From NCBI GenBank assembly GCA_938091475.1, contig CALLJI010000071.1, forward strand, positions 1-11,118: DNA of 11,118 bases, in the 5' to 3' direction. A program made the translations under genes and the position numbers. Source of the DNA: an uncultured Caldimicrobium sp. GTDB taxonomy: Bacteria; Desulfobacterota; Thermodesulfobacteria; Thermodesulfobacteriales; Thermodesulfobacteriaceae. This document shows positions 329 to 11,118 of this stretch, in pieces. The notes beneath the pieces are model-generated. The model saw only the letters and a program-made list of their open reading frames with translations, did no database searches and had not been told where the DNA came from. Position 1 is the stretch's first letter; every line of letters starts with the position of its first letter.

Positions 329-383
329 GTAGGGGCACGGCACTGCCGTGCCCAGATTGGGCAGCCACAAGGGCTGCCCCTAC
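329..383 (-). repeat. 55-nt two-hairpin composite unit, inverted copy
   Basis: Two hairpins (333-353 and 359-379) lie between GTAGGGGC on the left and GCCCCTAC on the right, with only 5 nt between them. Read on the minus strand the unit is 55 nt long and matches the unit at 4427-4481 at 48 of 55 positions, by my base-by-base comparison. Both hairpins, their order and their spacing are shared. Inverted termini around two hairpins resemble REPINs, which are paired inverted REP elements. Confidence 0.8.
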
Positions 384-896
384 GGATTTTTTTATTTTTT
401 TGGGCAAATCGTGATTTGCCCCTACGGCTTATGAATTCTTTGGGCTCAGCATGCTGAGCCCCTACTAATTTTTACTTCTGGGCAAATCCTGATTTGCTCT
501 ATAAATCGAGGCAATTCGTGAATTGCCCTACTTTTTTGATATTCCTTAGGCACAGCAGTGCTGTGCCCCTACAGATCTTTTAATTCCAGAATTATAAAAT
601 TAGTAGGGGCACGACATGTCGTGCCTCTACGATGTTTTGATCAAAAAATTCTGTAGGGGTACCCCTTGCGGGTGCCCAGAACTGTATGGCACAGCATGCT
701 GTGCCCAAAAGATTTAAAGAGTTAAATTTGTAGGGACAATTCAAGAATTGCCCAAAGGTTTCATCCGTAGGGGCGATTCACGAATCGCCCCCCAAAAATT
801 TGTAGGGGCACGGCACTGCCGTGCCCAAGGGAGTTTTATCTGTAGGGGCGGTTCACGAACCGTCCACAAATTAGGAGGGGCTGGGCTTGCCCCCGC
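329..896. repeat. Hairpin array 1: about 15 short palindromes with GTAGGGG/CCCCTAC flanks
   Basis: This gene-free stretch between mreB and the DUF429 gene holds about fifteen inverted repeats of 18-21 nt. Positions: 333-353, 359-379, 402-421, 442-461, 480-499, 509-528, 549-567, 607-626, 657-677, 688-705, 734-753, 771-790, 806-826, 846-865 and a decayed copy at 877-896. Outer bases are usually GGGC...GCCC. The inner arms differ between copies, for example CACGGCA/TGCCGTG, AAATC/GATTT, TCAGCA/TGCTGA, AATTC/GAATT, ACGACA/TGTCGT and GATTC/GAATC. Copies from 359 to 572 carry CCCCTAC (or a near match) on the right, or no clear flank. The copy at 603-630 has both flanks. Nearly all later copies carry GTAGGGG on the left. 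Spacers are AT-rich and unrelated. Function is unknown; transcription ending, RNA stabilisation or selfish REP-like spread are all possible. Confidence 0.9.
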
Positions 897-991
897 TTAC
901 TATATTAACCCTAACAAGCTCTCCTAAAAGGAGCAATGCTCTTAACTCTGTTCTTGGTGATGGTGTACACAACTTTCCCTTTTGTGGAAAA

Positions 992-1678
992 TTAGGTAGT
1001 ATTATGAATCACTCTTTTGTTTAAAACAACAAAGGGGCCAAATCCTTCTAAATTTTTATCTTGTGCTAAGAAGTGAAGTTTTTCTGGGGCCTTTATGAAA
1101 AATAAGGCACATAAGGCACTAAAGAAGGCATCTACCAGCCCCTCATAAAGAAAGAGTTCTTCTTTTAGTTTTATTTGTACCTCCCTTTCAATAAACTCTG
1201 CAAGCCATTGCCTCTCACTAAGATTTAAGCCTTCTTTTTTATATTTAAAGGCAAGAAATTTTTTTGTTTTTGGCAAGAGAAAATAAAAGTTAGCCCGGGG
1301 ATGTGTTTCAAGAATAGCGCCACAGTATGGACTTAAAGCCTTTGCAAGAAGATAACTTCTTATAGGAATACCCATAAGAGCATGATAAGAAACAACCCAA
1401 TTCTTAGCTTCCTTAGGTAATTGTTCTCTTAGGGCTTTATCTGCTCTCCTTAAACCTCCTTTAATTTCAAGAGAAAAGCTAAGAGGGGCATCTATGGTTA
1501 AAACCAAAACTCTCTTTTTCTGCACAAAAGAGATTAACTCTGTTAAGCTTACTGGAGGATAGAGATTTTTTAAAGACAAGGAATTTTCTAAGAGCTTAAG
1601 TTCTCTTCCCTTTTCTTCTATAGCTATAGCCCAAGTATTTTTTTCTCCTCCTATATCTATTCCTAAGTAATAAAACAT
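992..1678 (-). CDS. DUF429 family protein (predicted RNase H-like fold), function unknown
   Basis: This 228-residue protein has the landmarks of the DUF429 family (PF04250): GIDIGGEKNTW at residues 6-16, TIDAPLS at 61-67, RRADKALR at 77-84, ETHP at 124-127, GLVDAFFSALCAL at 180-192 and EGFGPFVVL at 211-219. Conserved acidic residues D8, D63, E124 and D183 sit where a ribonuclease H-like fold would gather metal ligands. That is a family-level inference; no reaction is known to me. The ATG at 1676-1678 is the earliest possible start, because TAA lies two codons upstream in frame. No Shine-Dalgarno sequence precedes it. The gene diverges from the radical SAM gene with 17 bp between start codons. 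Its 3' side runs towards hairpin array 1, and I see no classical terminator in 897-991. Confidence 0.85.
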   Translation of the reverse strand: MFYYLGIDIGGEKNTWAIAIEEKGRELKLLENSLSLKNLYPPVSLTELISFVQKKRVLVLTIDAPLSFSLEIKGGLRRADKALREQLPKEAKNWVVSYHALMGIPIRSYLLAKALSPYCGAILETHPRANFYFLLPKTKKFLAFKYKKEGLNLSERQWLAEFIEREVQIKLKEELFLYEGLVDAFFSALCALFFIKAPEKLHFLAQDKNLEGFGPFVVLNKRVIHNTT

Positions 1679-1695
1679 GTATTACATTTTAAATA

Positions 1696-4071
1696 ATGAT
1701 CAGGGATTATCCAGAGGAAATTCTTCATAAGGTAAAAAAACCCTCTCGCTATCTGGGAAGAGAGCCTTTTTTCGTTTTAAAATCATGGGATGATGCTGTT
1801 CTTAAGGTTTGTCTTTGTTATCCAGATCTTTATGAAGTAGGTCGCTCTTATTTAGGAATAAATCTATTAACAGGTATTATAAATCATTGCCCAACCTATT
1901 TAGCAGATAATGCCTTTGCCGTGGCTCCAGACTTTGAGATGAGTTTAAAAGAGAGAGCGCATCCTCTATTAAGCTGGAATTATAGAAAACCCCTCAGAGA
2001 ATTTGATGTAATAGGGTTCACCTATGCCTATGAATTATTGGTAACTAACATCATTCAAATCTTAGATCTTTCAAAGATTCCTTATAGAGCAGAAGAAAGG
2101 GAAGAGGGCTTCCCTCTGATTATAGCTGGAGGTCCCTGTGTTGGAAATCCTGAACCTATTGCCTCTATCTTTGATGTTATTCACATAGGAGATGGAGAAG
2201 AGGCTATTTTAGAAATTTTAAGAACTGTGGAGTTATGGAAGAAAAATAGGCTTTCCAAAATAGAATTACTTAAAGAATTAGTGAAAGTTGAGGGTGTATA
2301 CATACCACTTTTTAAAAACTCTCCTCGAAAGAGAATATATTTCTTCAATGAGGAAAAGAGAAATCTTAATAAAAGTATTCCAGTTATTCCTTTAGCTCAT
2401 GACAGAATTTTGATTGAGCTATCTCGAGGCTGTACAAGGGGATGTAGATTTTGTGAAGCAGGTTTTTATTATAGGCCTGTAAGAGAAAGGGAACCACAAG
2501 CTGTTTTAAAGGAAATAAAAGAAACCTTTAAAGAAACTGGCTATCGCGAAGCCTCTCTAATGTCTCTATCTGTGGGGGATTATAGCTCTTTAGAGGAGTT
2601 AGTTGATCTATTAGATAGGGAATTTTATCAAAGACCAGAGAAAGAATATATCTTTTCTTTGCCCTCATTAAGAGTAGGAAGCTTAACTCCTAAGCTTCTT
2701 GAATTCATAAAAAAGGGACGCACAACTACTCTTACCATAGCTATAGAAGCAGCCTCTGAAAGATTAAGAAGGATAATTAATAAACAAATAGACTTGGATG
2801 CCCTTACCAGAGATTTAAGCTTAGCTAAAAGGTATGGCTTTAAGAGAGTAAAATTTTATTTTATGCTTGGGCTTCCCAGAGAGGAGGAAGAGGATCTAAG
2901 GGAGATAGTGTCATTATATAAAGAATTAAAGAGGGCTTTTAGGGGTATAGAATTTCTTTTTTCTGCATCTATCTTTGTGCCCAAAGCCCATACACCCTTT
3001 CAATGGGAGAGACAAATAGGTTTAGAGGAGGCTTATGAAAAAATTAGCTTCTTAAAGAGTAGATTAGGCAGAAATTTCAAATCCCACCTTCCCGAGCAAA
3101 GTTTGGTTGAGGGAGTAATTAGCCGTGGTGGAAGAGAGCTGGCTGATTTTATAGAGACCCTCTATCAGAAAGGAGCTCGTTTGGATTCCTGGCAGGAATA
3201 TTTCAATTTTTCAATGTGGGAAGAAGTAAGTAGAGAAAAGGGAATTTCCTTTGAGAATTATCTAAGGGGGAAGGATCCTACTGAGCCATTGCCCTGGGAT
3301 CATATAAACATAGGTGTAAAAAAGGAATTTTTACTTGCAGAGAGAGATAGAGCTTATCAAGCCTTATACACAGAGGATTGTAGATGGAATGCCTGCTCTC
3401 TTTGCGGTGTATGTAGAAAAGAGATTAGAAACATCCTTGTAAAAGAGAAAGAGTATACAGAACCTCTGCACCAAGGAAAAATATTTGATCTTCAAAAAGA
3501 GGATAAGGAGGTTTGGTTTGAAATTGAATTTGATAAAACCGGACCTGCTAAGTTTTTATCCAACCTTGAATTATTAAATCTTTTTGAAAAGGTTTTGAGA
3601 AGAATGGGATTCTTACTTGCTTATACCCAAGGATTTAATCCCCGTATGAAGGTCATCTGTGGAGAGGCAAGTCCAGTTGGTGTAGAGGTAATTAGAGATA
3701 GGATATTTTTAGCTATGAAGAGTCAGGATAACTTGCATACCATTGAGGGGCAAGAAATTTATCCGGGGTTAACTATAAAAAGAGTAAAGCTCATTGGCTC
3801 AAAGAAACCAAACTTAGCAAAGCGTAAAATTTGTTATAAATTTTGGCTAAAGGAAGAGATAAAGGGAATTCTTAATATAAGTGAAGAGGGATTAAGGACA
3901 AGAGACAAAGTTGAGGTTAAGGAGACAGATAAGGGTTTTGAAATTTTTGTAGAGGAAGGTGAGATTTCAATTTTGAATTTCCTTCGGGAAGGTTTGGGGA
4001 TTGAGGATCCTTTAAGTTTAGGAAGATTGATAAAAATTTATTTAAAGGATGAGGATCAAGGCAATTCTTGA
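1696..4071 (+). CDS. B12-binding-like/radical SAM protein fused to DUF2344 (TIGR03960/TIGR03936-type)
   Basis: This 791-residue protein has three parts. Residues 1-200 resemble the N-terminal region of B12-binding-type radical SAM proteins (KVKKPSRYLGRE near the start, IIAGGPCVGNPEP at 142-154, HIGDGEEA at 163-170). Residues 235-480 are a radical SAM core with the iron-sulfur motif C246-x3-C250-x2-C253. The C-terminal domain from about 605 (WFEIEFDKTGPAKFLSNLEL, then TQGFNPRMK) matches DUF2344. Between them lies a second cysteine group, C562-x4-C567-x2-C570-x2-C573, which could hold another iron-sulfur cluster. The fusion is a known family, annotated as uncharacterised; RNA modification is often suspected but I cannot show it. 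An in-frame TAA at 1690-1692 fixes ATG 1696 as the first start, and no Shine-Dalgarno sequence is visible. The stop codon lies in a decayed copy of the array hairpin. Confidence 0.92.
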   Translation: MIRDYPEEILHKVKKPSRYLGREPFFVLKSWDDAVLKVCLCYPDLYEVGRSYLGINLLTGIINHCPTYLADNAFAVAPDFEMSLKERAHPLLSWNYRKPLREFDVIGFTYAYELLVTNIIQILDLSKIPYRAEEREEGFPLIIAGGPCVGNPEPIASIFDVIHIGDGEEAILEILRTVELWKKNRLSKIELLKELVKVEGVYIPLFKNSPRKRIYFFNEEKRNLNKSIPVIPLAHDRILIELSRGCTRGCRFCEAGFYYRPVREREPQAVLKEIKETFKETGYREASLMSLSVGDYSSLEELVDLLDREFYQRPEKEYIFSLPSLRVGSLTPKLLEFIKKGRTTTLTIAIEAASERLRRIINKQIDLDALTRDLSLAKRYGFKRVKFYFMLGLPREEEEDLREIVSLYKELKRAFRGIEFLFSASIFVPKAHTPFQWERQIGLEEAYEKISFLKSRLGRNFKSHLPEQSLVEGVISRGGRELADFIETLYQKGARLDSWQEYFNFSMWEEVSREKGISFENYLRGKDPTEPLPWDHINIGVKKEFLLAERDRAYQALYTEDCRWNACSLCGVCRKEIRNILVKEKEYTEPLHQGKIFDLQKEDKEVWFEIEFDKTGPAKFLSNLELLNLFEKVLRRMGFLLAYTQGFNPRMKVICGEASPVGVEVIRDRIFLAMKSQDNLHTIEGQEIYPGLTIKRVKLIGSKKPNLAKRKICYKFWLKEEIKGILNISEEGLRTRDKVEVKETDKGFEIFVEEGEISILNFLREGLGIEDPLSLGRLIKIYLKDEDQGNS

Positions 4072-4078
4072 AATAGCC
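4060..4078. repeat. Decayed array hairpin overlapping the 3' end of the radical SAM gene
   Basis: GGCAATTCTTGAAATAGCC resembles the GGCAATTC-nn-GAATTGCC hairpin version found intact at 510-527, 4323-4342 and 5766-5783. Its right arm carries an insertion and changes. The TGA stop (4069-4071) and the last codons (Gly-Asn-Ser) fall inside it. Confidence 0.55.
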
Positions 4079-4122
4079 TATAAGTTATTCCTGAAGTAAA
4101 GTCGCACTTTTTATGAAAAACT

Positions 4123-4177
4123 GTAGGGGCAGCCCTTGCGGTTGTCCACATTGGGCACGGCTGTGCCGTGTCCTTAC
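4123..4177 (+). repeat. 55-nt two-hairpin composite unit, copy in array 2 (left)
   Basis: GTAGGGGC, a hairpin with an AGCC...GGTT arm, a 5-nt spacer ACATT, a second hairpin with CACGGC/GCCGTG arms, then a decayed CCCCTAC end (TCCTTAC). It matches 4427-4481 at 51 of 55 positions. Three of the four differences are C-to-T in this copy and leave G-U pairing possible or fall in the flank. Confidence 0.85.
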
Positions 4178-4426
4178 AAAACATTGGGCACGACATGTCG
4201 TGCCCCTACGAATTTTAAAATTTTAGGAAAATCGGAAAAAATCAGTAGGGGCACAGCATGCTGTGCCCAAGGAGAAAAAAAGGTAGCCGCAGGCTTTAGC
4301 CTGCGAAAGGGGTTTGTAGGAGGGGCAATTCAAGAATTGCCCCGATTTTTGGGAATATCACGATATGGTCAAAAATTCAAGAAAAGTAGGGGCTCAGCAT
4401 GCTGAGCCCAAGAATAATAAAAAACT

Positions 4427-4481
4427 GTATGGGCAGCCCTTGCGGCTGTCCACATTGGGCACGGCTGTGCCGTGCCCCTAC
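4427..4481 (+). repeat. 55-nt two-hairpin composite unit, copy in array 2 (right)
   Basis: This is the copy in array 2 with the better-preserved stems: hairpins at 4431-4451 and 4457-4477, spacer ACATT, right end GCCCCTAC intact. The left flank reads GTATGGGC instead of GTAGGGGC. It serves as the reference for the copies at 4123-4177 (direct) and 329-383 (inverted). Confidence 0.85.
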
Positions 4482-4589
4482 GAAAATGGGCTGGGGCAAG
4501 CCCAGCCCCTACAAATAAAACCTTTTGGACACAGCGATGCCGTGCCCCAATACACGAAATCCTTTGTGTAGAGCATATCGTACCCCCTA

Positions 4590-4610
4590 TGTGACATTTC
4601 AAAATAGTAA
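4590..4610 (+). repeat. Short direct repeat just beyond array 2
   Basis: A 21-nt stretch beginning TGTGACATTTCAAAA matches 5957-5977 at 18 of 21 positions in the same orientation. Both copies follow the last hairpin of an array within about 45 nt. It could be the edge of a larger mobile unit or a chance AT-rich match. Confidence 0.45.
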
Positions 4611-4616
4611 CCACCC

Positions 4617-4644
4617 TTGAAAAAGCCGATATTGAAGTTAAATT
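4617..4644 (+). promoter_or_regulatory. Predicted sigma-70-type promoter of rnpB
   Basis: The -35 box TTGAAA (4617-4622) and -10 box TAAATT (4639-4644) are 16 bp apart. The expected start point, 7-9 nt further on, falls at about 4651-4653, exactly where the first strand of the RNase P P1 helix begins. That agreement is the main support. Confidence 0.65.
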
Positions 4645-4652
4645 TTGAAATA

Positions 4653-5043
4653 GGCAAGGGGGATAAGAGGCAGTTGCGCAGGGTGATTATAGTATCACCC
4701 TGTGAGGAAAGTCCGGGCTCCACAGGGGAGGATGCCGGGTAACACCCGGAGGGAGTAATCCCTGGATAGGGCCACAGAAAAGAGACCGCCAGCGGCTGAC
4801 CTCTAAAGAGGCCAGTGCGGGCAAGGGTGAAAAGGTGAGGTAAGAGCTCACCGCAGGTCCAGGTAACTGGACCTGGCACGGCAACCCCCATCCGGAGCAA
4901 GGCTAAACAGAGCCTATGGGTGCCCCGCCCAAATGGCTCGGGTAAGCCGCTTAAGGTTAAGGGTAACCTTAACCTCAGAGAAATAACTGCCCTGAAGGAA
5001 CACCTCCTTCAGAACAGAACCCGGCTTACTTATACCCCTTGCC
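4653..5043 (+). ncRNA. rnpB: RNase P RNA, bacterial type A
   Basis: This RNA is the catalytic subunit of RNase P, which removes the 5' leader of tRNA precursors. About 391 nt can be delimited by helix P1, where GGCAAGGGG at 4653 pairs with CCCCTTGCC ending at 5043. Conserved blocks are visible in order: GAGGAAAGTCCGGGCTCC (4704-4721), CACAGAAA (4773-4780), AGAGACCGCC (4781-4790), GGTAAGAGCTCACCG around 4840-4855, GGTAAG (4941-4946) near the expected CCA-binding loop, and ACAGAACCCGGCTTAC (5014-5029), which closes P4 and P2. Local helices include P3 (4679-4686 with 4695-4702), a 9-bp stem (4951-4959 with 4964-4972) and an 8-bp stem (4992-4999 with 5005-5012). The engB start codon follows 8 nt later without a terminator. 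Open frames on either strand here are not genes. Confidence 0.97.
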
Positions 5044-5051
5044 AGTAAAAT

Positions 5052-5639
5052 ATGTTTAAAAAAGTTGAATTTATAAAGAGCGTTTATAATCTTTCAGATC
5101 TTCCTCCACCAAAATATCCGGAAATACCTATCTTAGGTAGATCTAATGCTGGCAAATCTTCTTTCATAAATGCCCTTCTCAATCAAAGAGGTGTTGCCCG
5201 GGTATCCTCAACTCCTGGATTTACAAGGGCTTTAAATTTTTTTCTCATAGATAGAAAGTTTTATCTGGTTGACCTCCCAGGTTATGGTTATGCAAAAGTT
5301 CCTAAAGAGGTTTATCTTTCTTGGAAAGAACTTATCGAGGGATACTTTAAAAACACTATAAGAGATTTCGCCTTGTTAATTTTGATCTTTGATATAAGGC
5401 GCACTCCTGATTCCTTAGATGAAGCCCTCATTAAATTTGTAAAAAGCTTAAAGTACCCTTACCTAATTTTATTAAATAAAAAGGACACTCTAAAGGAAAA
5501 AGAAGTTAGTAGACAAATAGAGTTATACAAAGAAAGATTTTCTCTGCCCTCTGATGTTTACCCTTTAGCCATTTCCTGCAAAACTAAAGAGGGGATACAG
5601 GAAATTCGCAATAACCTTAAGAAGATTATAGAGCGCTGA
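5052..5639 (+). CDS. engB: Ribosome-assembly GTPase EngB/YsxC/YihA
   Basis: This 195-residue GTPase is the normal length for EngB, which assists large ribosomal subunit assembly. All GTP-binding motifs are present: G1 GRSNAGKSS (29-37), the switch I region SSTPGFTRALNFF (52-64), G3 DLPGYGYAKVP (74-84), G4 NKKD (142-145) and G5 SCK (175-177). DLPGYGYA and STPGFT identify EngB among small GTPases. ATG 5052 is the first possible start, because TAA (5046-5048) is in frame just before it. No Shine-Dalgarno sequence is visible. The start lies only 8 nt after rnpB, so the message is probably a continuation of the RNase P RNA transcript released by 3' processing, joining tRNA maturation and ribosome assembly in one transcription unit. 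That link is an inference. Confidence 0.95.
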   Translation: MFKKVEFIKSVYNLSDLPPPKYPEIPILGRSNAGKSSFINALLNQRGVARVSSTPGFTRALNFFLIDRKFYLVDLPGYGYAKVPKEVYLSWKELIEGYFKNTIRDFALLILIFDIRRTPDSLDEALIKFVKSLKYPYLILLNKKDTLKEKEVSRQIELYKERFSLPSDVYPLAISCKTKEGIQEIRNNLKKIIER

Positions 5640-5683
5640 AATTAAAGAAATATAACACCAAAAATTACTCGGTGTGGCTTTTC

Positions 5684-5950
5684 ACGATTTGCCCAAAATC
5701 ATATAAAAAAAAAATGTAGGGGCTCGTCTTGCTGAGCCCAGAACGGTTTAAAGGTTTGAATTAGGGGCAATTCAAGAATTGCTCAGAACTTCCAAAACCC
5801 GTAGGGGCAGCCCTTGCGTCTGCCCAAAATGCGGTTTAAAACCCCTTGGGCACCCGCAAGCCCAGCCCCTAGAGGGTTTAAATTCATTTTTAGGGCGATT
5901 CGTGAATCGGACCTACGGGTAGAACTTTTTGTGAACGGCGTGCCGTGCTC
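5684..5950. repeat. Hairpin array 3: six decayed palindromes plus a half copy
   Basis: Between engB and the lipoprotein gene, the hairpins are 5720-5739, 5765-5784, 5805-5825, 5848-5868, 5893-5912 and 5931-5950. A half copy, ACGATTTGCCC, lies at 5684-5694. Array 3 is more eroded than the other two: nearly every stem has at least one mismatch. GTAGGGG flanks remain at 5716 and 5801; right flanks are CCCCTAG at 5866-5872 and a damaged CCTAC at 5912-5916. The hairpin at 5848-5868 has arms from two different stem versions. A five-base stem (5655-5659 with 5671-5675) just before the array is too weak to call a terminator of engB. Confidence 0.85.
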
Positions 5951-5956
5951 ATACTG

Positions 5957-9461: not shown

Positions 9462-10386
9462 TTGAGGCAGAATCTACTACATAGGAATTACCCTCTATCT
9501 TTTTAGCCTTATACATAGCAGCATCTGCTCTATTAATTAAATCTGAAACTGATTTTTCAAGCTCTCCTCTATCTATAAGCTGGGCAATACCTGCAGAGAG
9601 TGTAACTGGTTTATATGGCATATGATCCCATTCCTCAAAAATCCTTTCTACAATCTTTATGGCTACCTCATAAGTAGTATAGGGTAAAATAATCACAAAT
9701 TCATCTCCTCCATATCTACAGACCTTGTCTACACCTCCTCTTGTATTTTTGCAAAAGACATTACCTACACTTATCAAAACCTTGTCTCCCTCTTTATGTC
9801 CAAAATTATCGTTGTAGAATTTAAATTTATCTAAATCTATCATAATTAGAGAGAGAGGATATTTTAATCTTATGGCTCGGTAAGTTTCCTCTCTAATGCT
9901 TATTTCAAAATGGCGCCTATTATAAGTTTGAGTTAGGGCATCCTCTACGATAAATCTTTCAATTTTTTTGTTTAAATAAAATTCTTTTAAAAGCTTCCAG
10001 AGTCTTGCTTTAAATTCACCTACTGAGAAGGGTTTAAAAATAACTTCGTCTGCTCCTGCAGTAAAAAGGTTACCAATATCAAAATTTTTATGATAATCTA
10101 TCATTGCATACATAAGTAATTCTTGGTTGACTCTTTTTAATTCCTTTATAATTGTAATTACCTCCTCATCCAGGGTTTCTATGGCAAGGATGACTAAATG
10201 AAAATTATCCTTTAATAGAGTAGAAAATAGTTCTTTCAGGGATGGCACATAGGTACACTCTAATTGGGCAGACCTCAAAATCTCAAGGAGAAGTTCACTT
10301 ATAAAGGGCTCGGGTTCATAAAGTATTGCATTAATCTTCAAACCTAATTCTGATTTTATTTTTTGAATTAATTCAATTAGGTCCAT
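9406..10386 (-). CDS. Diguanylate cyclase-like protein: degenerate receiver plus GGDEF domain
   Basis: This 326-residue cytoplasmic protein has two domains. Residues 17-133 have the pattern of a response-regulator receiver, with [10 protein letters not shown] at the first strand and FKPF (117-120) carrying the conserved lysine. However, the usual phospho-acceptor aspartate is replaced by alanine (LVILAIE, A68), so phosphorylation in the normal way is unlikely. Residues 148-303 are a GGDEF domain with [12 protein letters not shown] (149-160), metal-site [11 protein letters not shown] (183-193), GHKEGD (196-201) and RYGGDEF (224-230), so cyclic-di-GMP synthesis is plausible. The inhibitory RxxD site is altered (R216 and D220 are four residues apart). 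The ATG overlaps the stop of the upstream IMPase-Nudix gene by 10 bp, which points to translational coupling; AAGGG lies 11 nt upstream. The C-terminal 18 codons overlap the convergent nuclease gene. Confidence 0.94.
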
Positions 10387-11118
10387 AAGCCTTTTCCCTT
10401 CAAGTAATCTCTTAAAATTTGGGGATGATCAAAGACAAGTTTATCCCAGGGTATTTCGTCTATTTTAAAGGATTTTGCCCTTTTGGCATCGTCTTGCCCT
10501 CTGAGTTCACCCTTACCTTTGGCAATGAATACAACGGCTAAGGTATGAAACCTTGGATCTCTCTTGGGATCCGAATAACAGCCTAAAAGTTTATCTATTT
10601 CTATATCTAAATTAGTTTCTTCTTTAGCTTCTCTGTGAGCAGCATCCTCTGCCCTCTCTCCATATTCAATAAAACCTCCTGGCAGAGCCCAACCTAAAGG
10701 TGGATTTTTGCGTTCAATCAAAACTATGCCTCCCTCATATTCTATTATGATATCTACAGCTGGAAGGGGATTGCGGAAGGGTTGAAAAGTTTTGGGATGT
10801 TTATGGCTTAAGATTTCAAGCATTTCCTCGTGAATAAAACCGTTTGAAGCAACTATAGTATCCATAAAGGGGTGATAGGGATTTCCTAAATAATCAGTCA
10901 CTCTTCCTCCTGCTTCTTGCACTAAGAGAAAACCAGCTGCAGTGTCCCAAGGTTTTAAATAAGGCTCAAAAAAACCTTCATATCTTCCACAAGCTACATA
11001 AGCCAAATCTAAAGCTGCAGAACCAAATCTTCTAATGCCTTGAGAGCGTTGGATTAACTCTTCAAAGGGTACGATAAAAGGCTTAGCGTTTTCTAAAATT
11101 TTTGAGACTGGAAACCCA
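10377..11118 (-). CDS. Inositol monophosphatase-family protein fused to a Nudix hydrolase (5' end beyond the right edge)
   Basis: The reading frame is open to base 11118 and its start lies outside the window; 246 residues and the last partial codon are visible. The first half is the C-terminal part of an inositol monophosphatase/SuhB-type phosphatase, with [19 protein letters not shown] followed by [15 protein letters not shown]. The WDxAAG aspartate is a metal ligand of that family. After a short linker ([24 protein letters not shown]) comes a Nudix domain with a nearly complete box Gx5Ex7REUxEExGU at 10608-10676. Its catalytic REAKEE is intact, with N where the last G is usual. Nudix enzymes cleave nucleoside diphosphates linked to another group, such as ADP-ribose; the substrate here is unknown. 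No stop codon or in-frame start of note separates the two halves. The frame ends by overlapping the GGDEF start. Confidence 0.9.

Follow-up and report, generated by a model that had tools for sequence, protein, structure and literature searches.

Hairpin arrays in the window

The window analyzed here, 11,118 nucleotides, is one whole contig (C71) of an assembly from an uncultured Caldimicrobium sp. (1,260,560 bases, 233 contigs, 72% complete). Its three long gaps hold 34 short hairpins or decayed hairpins, counted by hand (15, 12, and 7), of which 33 have the outer ends GGGC and GCCC and one is of another type. We describe these hairpins, which carry a GTAG tag, as repetitive extragenic palindromic (REP) elements and relate them to a REP-associated tyrosine transposase (RAYT) gene found elsewhere in the assembly. 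A first-pass annotation of the window had reported about 33 hairpins with near-constant ends, a set of named inner-arm versions, and a relic at the 3' end of a gene; the hand count, the versions, all of which were present, and the relic bear this out (Table 1).

Table 1 Features of the window. Signs > and < in the array orders correspond to the + and - strands.
Feature	Position	Strand	Remarks
Array 1	329..895	n/a	15 hairpins or decayed hairpins, read by eye; tagged-element finder recovers 11; order >ACGG <AGCC <AAAT <TCAG <AAAT (decayed) <AATT <ACAG =ACGA (double tag) >ACCC >ACAG >AATT >GATT >ACGG >GGTT >TGGG (decayed)
GTAG-tagged hairpin, version ACGG	329..353	+	by eye
GTAG-tagged hairpin, version AGCC	359..383	-	tags-outside pair with 329-353, 5 bp between; by eye and finder
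Double-tagged hairpin, version ACGA	603..630	+	by eye and finder
GTAG-tagged hairpin, version GATT	767..790	+	by eye
GTAG-tagged hairpin, version GGTT	842..865	+	foot GTCC; by eye
Relic like version AATT	about 4059..4079	n/a	over stop codon of gene 1696-4071; by eye
Array 2	4123..4590	n/a	12 hairpins or decayed hairpins, read by eye; tagged-element finder recovers 8; order >AGCC <ACGG <ACGA >ACAG >(second REP type) >AATT >TCAG >AGCC <ACGG <TGGG plus two decayed
Second REP type, GTAG-CCGCAGGC-TTTA-GCCTGCG	4283..4305	+	slot between ACAG and AATT
GTAG-tagged hairpin, version TGGG	4488..4512	-	aligns with GATT hairpin elsewhere in like context
rnpB (RNase P RNA, class A)	4658..5042	+	neighbor used for synteny; outside arrays
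Array 3	5672..5951	n/a	7 mostly decayed hairpins, by eye; versions like AAAT, TCAG, AATT, AGCC, TGGG, GATT, ACGG

Anatomy and pairing of the hairpins

Hairpins were surveyed in a sample of 81 contigs of the same genome (442,616 bases). In its typical form the unit reads GTAG-GGGC-N4-C-loop-G-N4'-GCCC, with A-rich DNA after it. It is 24-25 nt long in both main classes, and one class has the tip C-TT-G plus an unpaired base. The tag is mostly one-sided, and both ends were tagged in only 11 of 459 distinct hairpins. These 459, with at least three of the four middle pairs formed, were used for the counts of neighbor pairs, loop orientation, and location relative to genes.

The sample contained 754 tag sites with at most one mismatch; 609 of these had the foot and 390 had exactly complementary outer 4-nt arms. 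When the left arms were redealt before the choice of distance, 200 trials gave a mean of 34.6 matches and a maximum of 57 (an earlier, less fair arm shuffle gave 41.7 and 62), and thus pairing is kept across versions, as had been claimed at first. Eleven versions with at least 11 copies each account for 383 of the 390 matched stems: ACGG (83), GATT (52), AATT (42), AGCC (37), ACGA (32), AGGG (32), ACAG (31), TCAG (26), AAAT (19), TGGG (18), and GGTT (11). The discrete versions, together with the control, rule out a single decayed sequence as the source of the arms. The remaining arm pairs, 219 in number, are non-identical, and their most frequent type (26) seems to be a register artefact of the AGGG/TGGG versions.

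Free variation was confined to the four middle base pairs. In the 12-nt class these carried 1.3-1.6 bits per position with mutual information of 1.06-1.43, and the apical C-G pair, which was no part of the search pattern, carried about 0.3 bits. In the 13-nt class the apical C was constant and its pairing partner varied with loop type. The exchangeable inner arms of the first-pass annotation are therefore real as versions, but the exchangeable part is four base pairs, the apical C-G pair and the short loop being constant. A single base pair separates many of the versions (ACGG-ACGA, ACGG-ACAG-TCAG, GATT-AATT-AAAT, GATT-GGTT, and AGGG-TGGG).

The loops were tied to the tag. Across nine asymmetric stem-loop types, 208 loops lay forward relative to GTAG and 7 were reversed. 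This fits a single strand that is read together with the tag, whereas a symmetric duplex site gives no reason for it, and it lends indirect support to single-strand processing by a RAYT. Note that the loops to be counted, like the two strand groups described below, were picked after inspection of the data, and that several other tests were also shaped after looking at the data.

Copy number and genomic position

The pattern GTAGGGGC N8-20 GCCC matched the assembly 436 times forward and 485 times reverse (921 in all), the reversed-pattern control 1 and 0 times, and the same pattern gave 0-19 matches in each of six other species of the genus. Hairpins occurred in 52 of the 81 sampled contigs at a density of about one tagged hairpin per kb, which rules out a local duplication. 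Only 7 of the 459 hairpin centers fell inside open reading frames (ORFs) of at least 150 aa, called by length only, against an expectation of about 365. The genome search that the first-pass annotation had proposed thus gave the hundreds of intergenic copies in many versions that it looked for, and neither of the outcomes that it named as contrary, one decayed sequence or a purely local family, was found. Passages of a source on E. coli give 355 and 697 annotated REPs (PMC12306157).

On a crude ORF map, again by length only, hairpins were present in 15 of 20 divergent gaps, 24 of 259 unidirectional gaps, and 5 of 26 convergent gaps. This divergent-gap enrichment, provisional in view of the crude map, is at odds with what has been published on other genomes rich in REPs. 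It is also what could be expected if the host had selected the hairpins as terminators, mRNA stabilizers, or promoter-region elements, with pairing kept for use, and the strongly kept pairing agrees with such a function. However, the tag strand continues A-rich after the hairpin with no T run, the other strand goes on with CTAC, six same-genus species have at most 19 matches, and in two relatives that share the gene order rnpB is preceded by short gaps. We consider a host-selected RNA or DNA function very unlikely, and the missing T run led us to reject intrinsic terminators as a class.

A RAYT gene with REPs in its frame

A single Y1 transposase gene was found in the assembly (L006:137-829, 231 aa). 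The protein has the HuH motif PNHIHG and the tyrosine (Tyr) motif WQRNYYE. REPs lie both upstream and downstream of the gene, and three tagged REPs are within its frame between the two motifs. The protein matched PF01797 above the cut-off (27.8 versus 23), and its closest homologs, among the matches listed, include proteins that a source names 'REP element-mobilizing transposase RayT'.

An AlphaFold model built from an alignment of 25 sequences (25 of the 120 proteins listed) had a mean predicted local distance difference test score of 74.6, with low confidence at residues 105-139, inside the REP-encoded part. Foldseek gave ten matches at E <=0.001, all IS200/IS605 transposases or 4ER8, the structure of TnpA-REP with a REP hairpin. 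The TM-scores were modest (for 4ER8, 0.41 by query and 0.57 by target). By sequence, the protein had no match in the PDB up to E = 1.

Order of stems within arrays

Neighboring hairpins, defined by a gap of at most 120 bp, had the same stem in only 2 of 369 pairs. Shuffling of stems over all positions gave 38.8 such pairs (minimum 20), and shuffling within arrays gave a mean of 20.1 and a minimum of 8 in 5,000 trials. Inverted neighbors never shared a stem, whether the tags were outside (0 of 61) or inside (0 of 38). The arrays are therefore not built of inverted doublets of like REPs, the REP doublets known as REPINs. Within arrays the stems split into two groups on opposite strands: pairs from the same group lay on one strand in 628 cases versus 55, and pairs from different groups did so in 85 versus 589.

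The common order is <GATT <ACGA, 32 bp, >ACAG, second REP type, >AAAT or >AATT, >TCAG, >AATT, and then >AGCC, 5 bp, <ACGG, <AGGG, <ACGG, <GATT, from which individual arrays deviate. Gaps between hairpins range from 4 to more than 100 bp and contain recurring sequences. As spacer lengths and sequences recur with the stem pair, the arrays share ancestry, and this ancestry alone could account for the scarcity of identical neighbors. Assembly breaks do not explain it: 13 of 162 contig ends lay within 100 bp of a hairpin, with 13.3 expected. Clustered regularly interspaced short palindromic repeat (CRISPR) arrays were rejected as an identity, given neighbors that differ in stem, hairpins on both strands, the wide range of gaps, and recurring spacer sequences.

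A more speculative idea is that the hairpins have a common address, made up of tag, foot, and tip, and a free barcode in the middle four base pairs, such that one RAYT would serve an orthogonal set of hairpins. Arrays would last only where neighboring barcodes differ, identical ones pairing or recombining away, and this filter rather than a function of any single stem would drive the roughly eleven barcodes and the two-strand mosaic. We hold this to be rather doubtful. As a general law the neighbor rule is ruled out, since at loci of other genomes the same stem occurred in 13 of 36 adjacent pairs (eight own-genome pairs, L345, excluded). The scarcity of identical neighbors, direct and inverted, touches a question left open by Di Nocera et al. 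(2013), why heterodimers prevail.

The second REP type of array 2 had 22 copies in the sample (for example at about 968-995 of L006, the locus of the RAYT gene). All were within 70 bp of main hairpins, often directly after ACAG.

Change of stems at fixed sites

The first-pass annotation had read the versions as whole-stem swaps. Aligned sites whose flanks were at least 0.7 identical had the same stem in 234 of 369 comparisons, stems one pair apart in 94, and stems two to four pairs apart in 41; such comparisons are not independent. Copies in the same genome also share ancestry. In 159 site pairs both neighbors were shared; of these pairs, 94 had identical middle stems, 39 differed there by one base pair, and 26 by two or more. 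When both spacers were also at least 0.7 similar (n = 17), 14 stems were the same, 3 differed by one pair, and none by more. In-place change of single pairs is supported by these data, and the supposed swaps are mostly single compensatory base-pair steps. Full stem swaps at one site are not proven.

Two explanations of these changes need no choice of stems by a transposase or else place the exchange in a copying step. In quasipalindrome correction, arm-to-arm templated replication repair would pair one-sided mutations in place. Most versions are indeed linked by single compensatory pairs, and one-sided intermediates are present at low counts (AATT with GATT 3 + 3, ACGG with ACAG 3, and AGGG with TGGG 9). 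The dispersal, the tag, and loops tied to the tag strand are left unexplained by such repair, however, and stems with two mismatched pairs (left TCCG, right fitting ACGG) last in 10 copies. We regard correction as an unlikely account of the stem versions.

Cassette exchange, in which a whole stem is replaced at a fixed place by RAYT strand transfer or gene conversion, seems about equally unlikely. It could explain the 26 site pairs that share both neighbors and differ by two to four pairs, as well as alignments that set unlike stems among like neighbors (L142 near 5214, GATT, versus the window near 4488, TGGG; L076 near 2707, AGGG, versus L142 near 5214). The well-matched spacers, none of which flanked stems more than one pair apart, argue against it. 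Moreover, the AT-rich spacers resemble one another by chance (background similarity median 0.57, 95% at 0.79), and an apparent swap can arise when the mosaic is aligned out of register.

Occurrence in other genomes

A scan of named genomes with GTAGGGGC-N12-GCCCCTAC matched at least 80 stretches, and among the matches listed were Cyanobacteria, Chloroflexi, Deltaproteobacteria, Omnitrophota, and Planctomycetota. The 80 listed stretches contained 85 places with 54 different 12-mers, 80 of which places paired over at least four bases, pairing not being demanded by the pattern. Through 40 of the stretches we reached 39 hairpin-positive genomes, and a RAYT relative was present in 29 of these.

A tagged hairpin lay between HuH and Tyr in 19 of 26 RAYT frames (our own plus 25 of 30 fetched loci). 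Together the 26 frames had 29 hairpins in the 7,332 bases between the motifs versus 1 in 10,056 bases elsewhere. Loci having no frame with both motifs were left out, namely 29 PF01797-only loci (L040-L068) and L264, L269, L284, L289, and L291. At the protein level both segment motifs were found in 84 of 120 proteins and a narrow peptide pattern matched 21 of those 84; the DNA count was preferred. The commonest dispersed stem was also inside the RAYT gene in 5 of 7 genomes sampled further, although the G088 stretch includes the RAYT gene, that of G067 may include it, and G061 is represented by three sites. Cross-genome stem comparisons matched in 2 or 3 of 42 cases.

The search for a RAYT covered 60 genomes and detected one in 8; of the 30 genomes that belong to the family, our own was the only positive. 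The relatives G003 and G006 have the same gene order at rnpB, with an upstream gap of less than about 50 nt and 120 nt, respectively, compared with 586 here. In a further relative, G001, that gap is about 800 nt and no tagged hairpin was found in it; the 19 matches in this genome have mostly other stems (AAAC, AGAC, and the like). The simplest reading of these comparisons is that the hairpins and the RAYT were gained in this lineage.

The hairpins as probable substrates of a RAYT

The hairpins have the properties of GTAG-type REPs: a palindrome of 20-40 bp with GTAG at one end, a high copy number, a mainly extragenic location, and a RAYT gene with adjoining REPs in the genome. CGTC-tagged REPs do not apply, the tag being GTAG by definition of the sites found. 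We conclude that, as single strands, these GTAG-tagged REP elements very probably serve as substrate for a RAYT of subclass 2.4 type (TnpA-REP, a single-strand DNA transposase of the HuH/Tyr kind). Recognition by the enzyme would rely on the GTAG guide together with the G-rich foot and the C-loop-G tip, all on one strand; the stem would have to be a good one, but no particular sequence would be required of it. The four middle base pairs would be free to change while they remain paired, and each version that is still a good substrate would be multiplied. Inverted pairs and longer composite stretches would be copied too, giving an ordered mosaic like that of bacterial interspersed mosaic elements (BIMEs). 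We infer that the genome's own RAYT acts on its own REPs and that selection at the RAYT step maintains pairing; the ways in which composites spread and in which identical neighbors became rare are inferred likewise. Passages of Corneloup et al. (2021; PMC8266576) on two other RAYTs report that a stem mismatch largely stops cleavage, that changes to the stem affect it little or moderately as long as pairing is preserved, and that the bases of the loop are critical.

Subclass 2.4, as presented in sections of Quentin et al. (2018; PMC6006769), has REPs with three basal G-C pairs, REPs with a double foot, and REPs that lie in frame within the RAYT gene, between HuH and Y. All are found here, the three G-C pairs lying in a foot by which our sites were defined and the double-foot copies being the 11 of 459 noted above. 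The GTAG tag, the scattering over phyla, and the long HuH-Y distance (median 88 there, 87 here by the motifs that we used) are further likenesses. The RAYT is thus probably of the subclass 2.4 kind, a placement made by gene and REP features rather than by position in a protein tree. As REPs inside the RAYT gene are already in print in that paper, we dropped them as a new finding. What differs from its account of the subclass, so far as those sections go, is the presence of some eleven stem versions beside a single detected RAYT, a density of one tagged hairpin per kb, and an ordered two-strand mosaic.

The BIMEs of E. coli are made up of units of two or three types. Our arrays resemble BIMEs and REPINs in alternating orientation, recurring spacers, inverted pairs, and compensatory changes, as described in part of PMC3116915 and, for BIMEs, also as general background; they differ in the absence of same-stem inverted neighbors and in being a mosaic of about 11 stems. 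Parts of Di Nocera et al. (2013; PMC3733652), which treats 24 GTAG families, describe alternative complementary stem residues, as sub-families, in most of them, and the remark of the first-pass annotation that ordinary REP families usually vary far less in the stem finds no support in that form. Those families also share with ours an extragenic location and an arrangement as singletons, dimers, and clusters, heterodimers predominating in some. In contrast, the same parts place them mainly between unidirectional and convergent genes, whereas divergent gaps were enriched on our crude ORF map.

Several observations weigh against this RAYT reading. The same parts of Di Nocera et al. (2013) state that genomes with several REP families have repeat-specific REPtrons, whereas we found one RAYT for 11 stems in an incomplete assembly. 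The match of that RAYT to NF047646 (NCBIfam) reached 61.5 bits, under the curated 80, in two stretches flanking the in-frame REPs. No RAYT relative was found in the other 10 of the 39 hairpin-positive genomes searched, nor by our search in G001 despite its hairpins, and in G065 and G081 (2 of the 7 sampled further) no stem was shared between the RAYT and the dispersed REPs. The ten copies of the doubly mismatched stem indicate that imperfect stems can multiply too. Finally, tag and foot are near-constant in part because they served to locate the sites, and the tabulation was limited to sites in which three or all of the four pairs form.

The observation of the first-pass annotation is thus confirmed and its interpretation partly supported. 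The arrays are an extreme variant of a known system, remarkable for how densely the hairpins lie, how many stems accompany a single detected enzyme, and how the stems are ordered. With four base pairs free to vary while tag, foot, and tip stay the same, all in a genome in which one enzyme was detected, they amount to a natural mutational scan of what a subclass 2.4 RAYT should tolerate. In the open-access literature searched, no title on an eleven-stem ordered mosaic and no mention of the four REP-encoded peptides was found, and the leading matches to the string GTAGGGGC look unrelated by title.

Other observations

Genome G032, of the same order, had 22 Y1_Tnp matches, many in frames of near 290-300 aa, and few GTAGGGGC hairpins (5 + 0); it perhaps has another repeat type. 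L279, from the genome behind L199 (Trichormus sp. NMC-1), has a RAYT frame of 590 aa with a long tandem repeat of the peptide ALAKQDFSQSFSEVEGE between HuH and Tyr. At the far end of the window, positions 10377-11117 form a single open frame in which a NUDIX domain comes after an inositol monophosphatase-type part.

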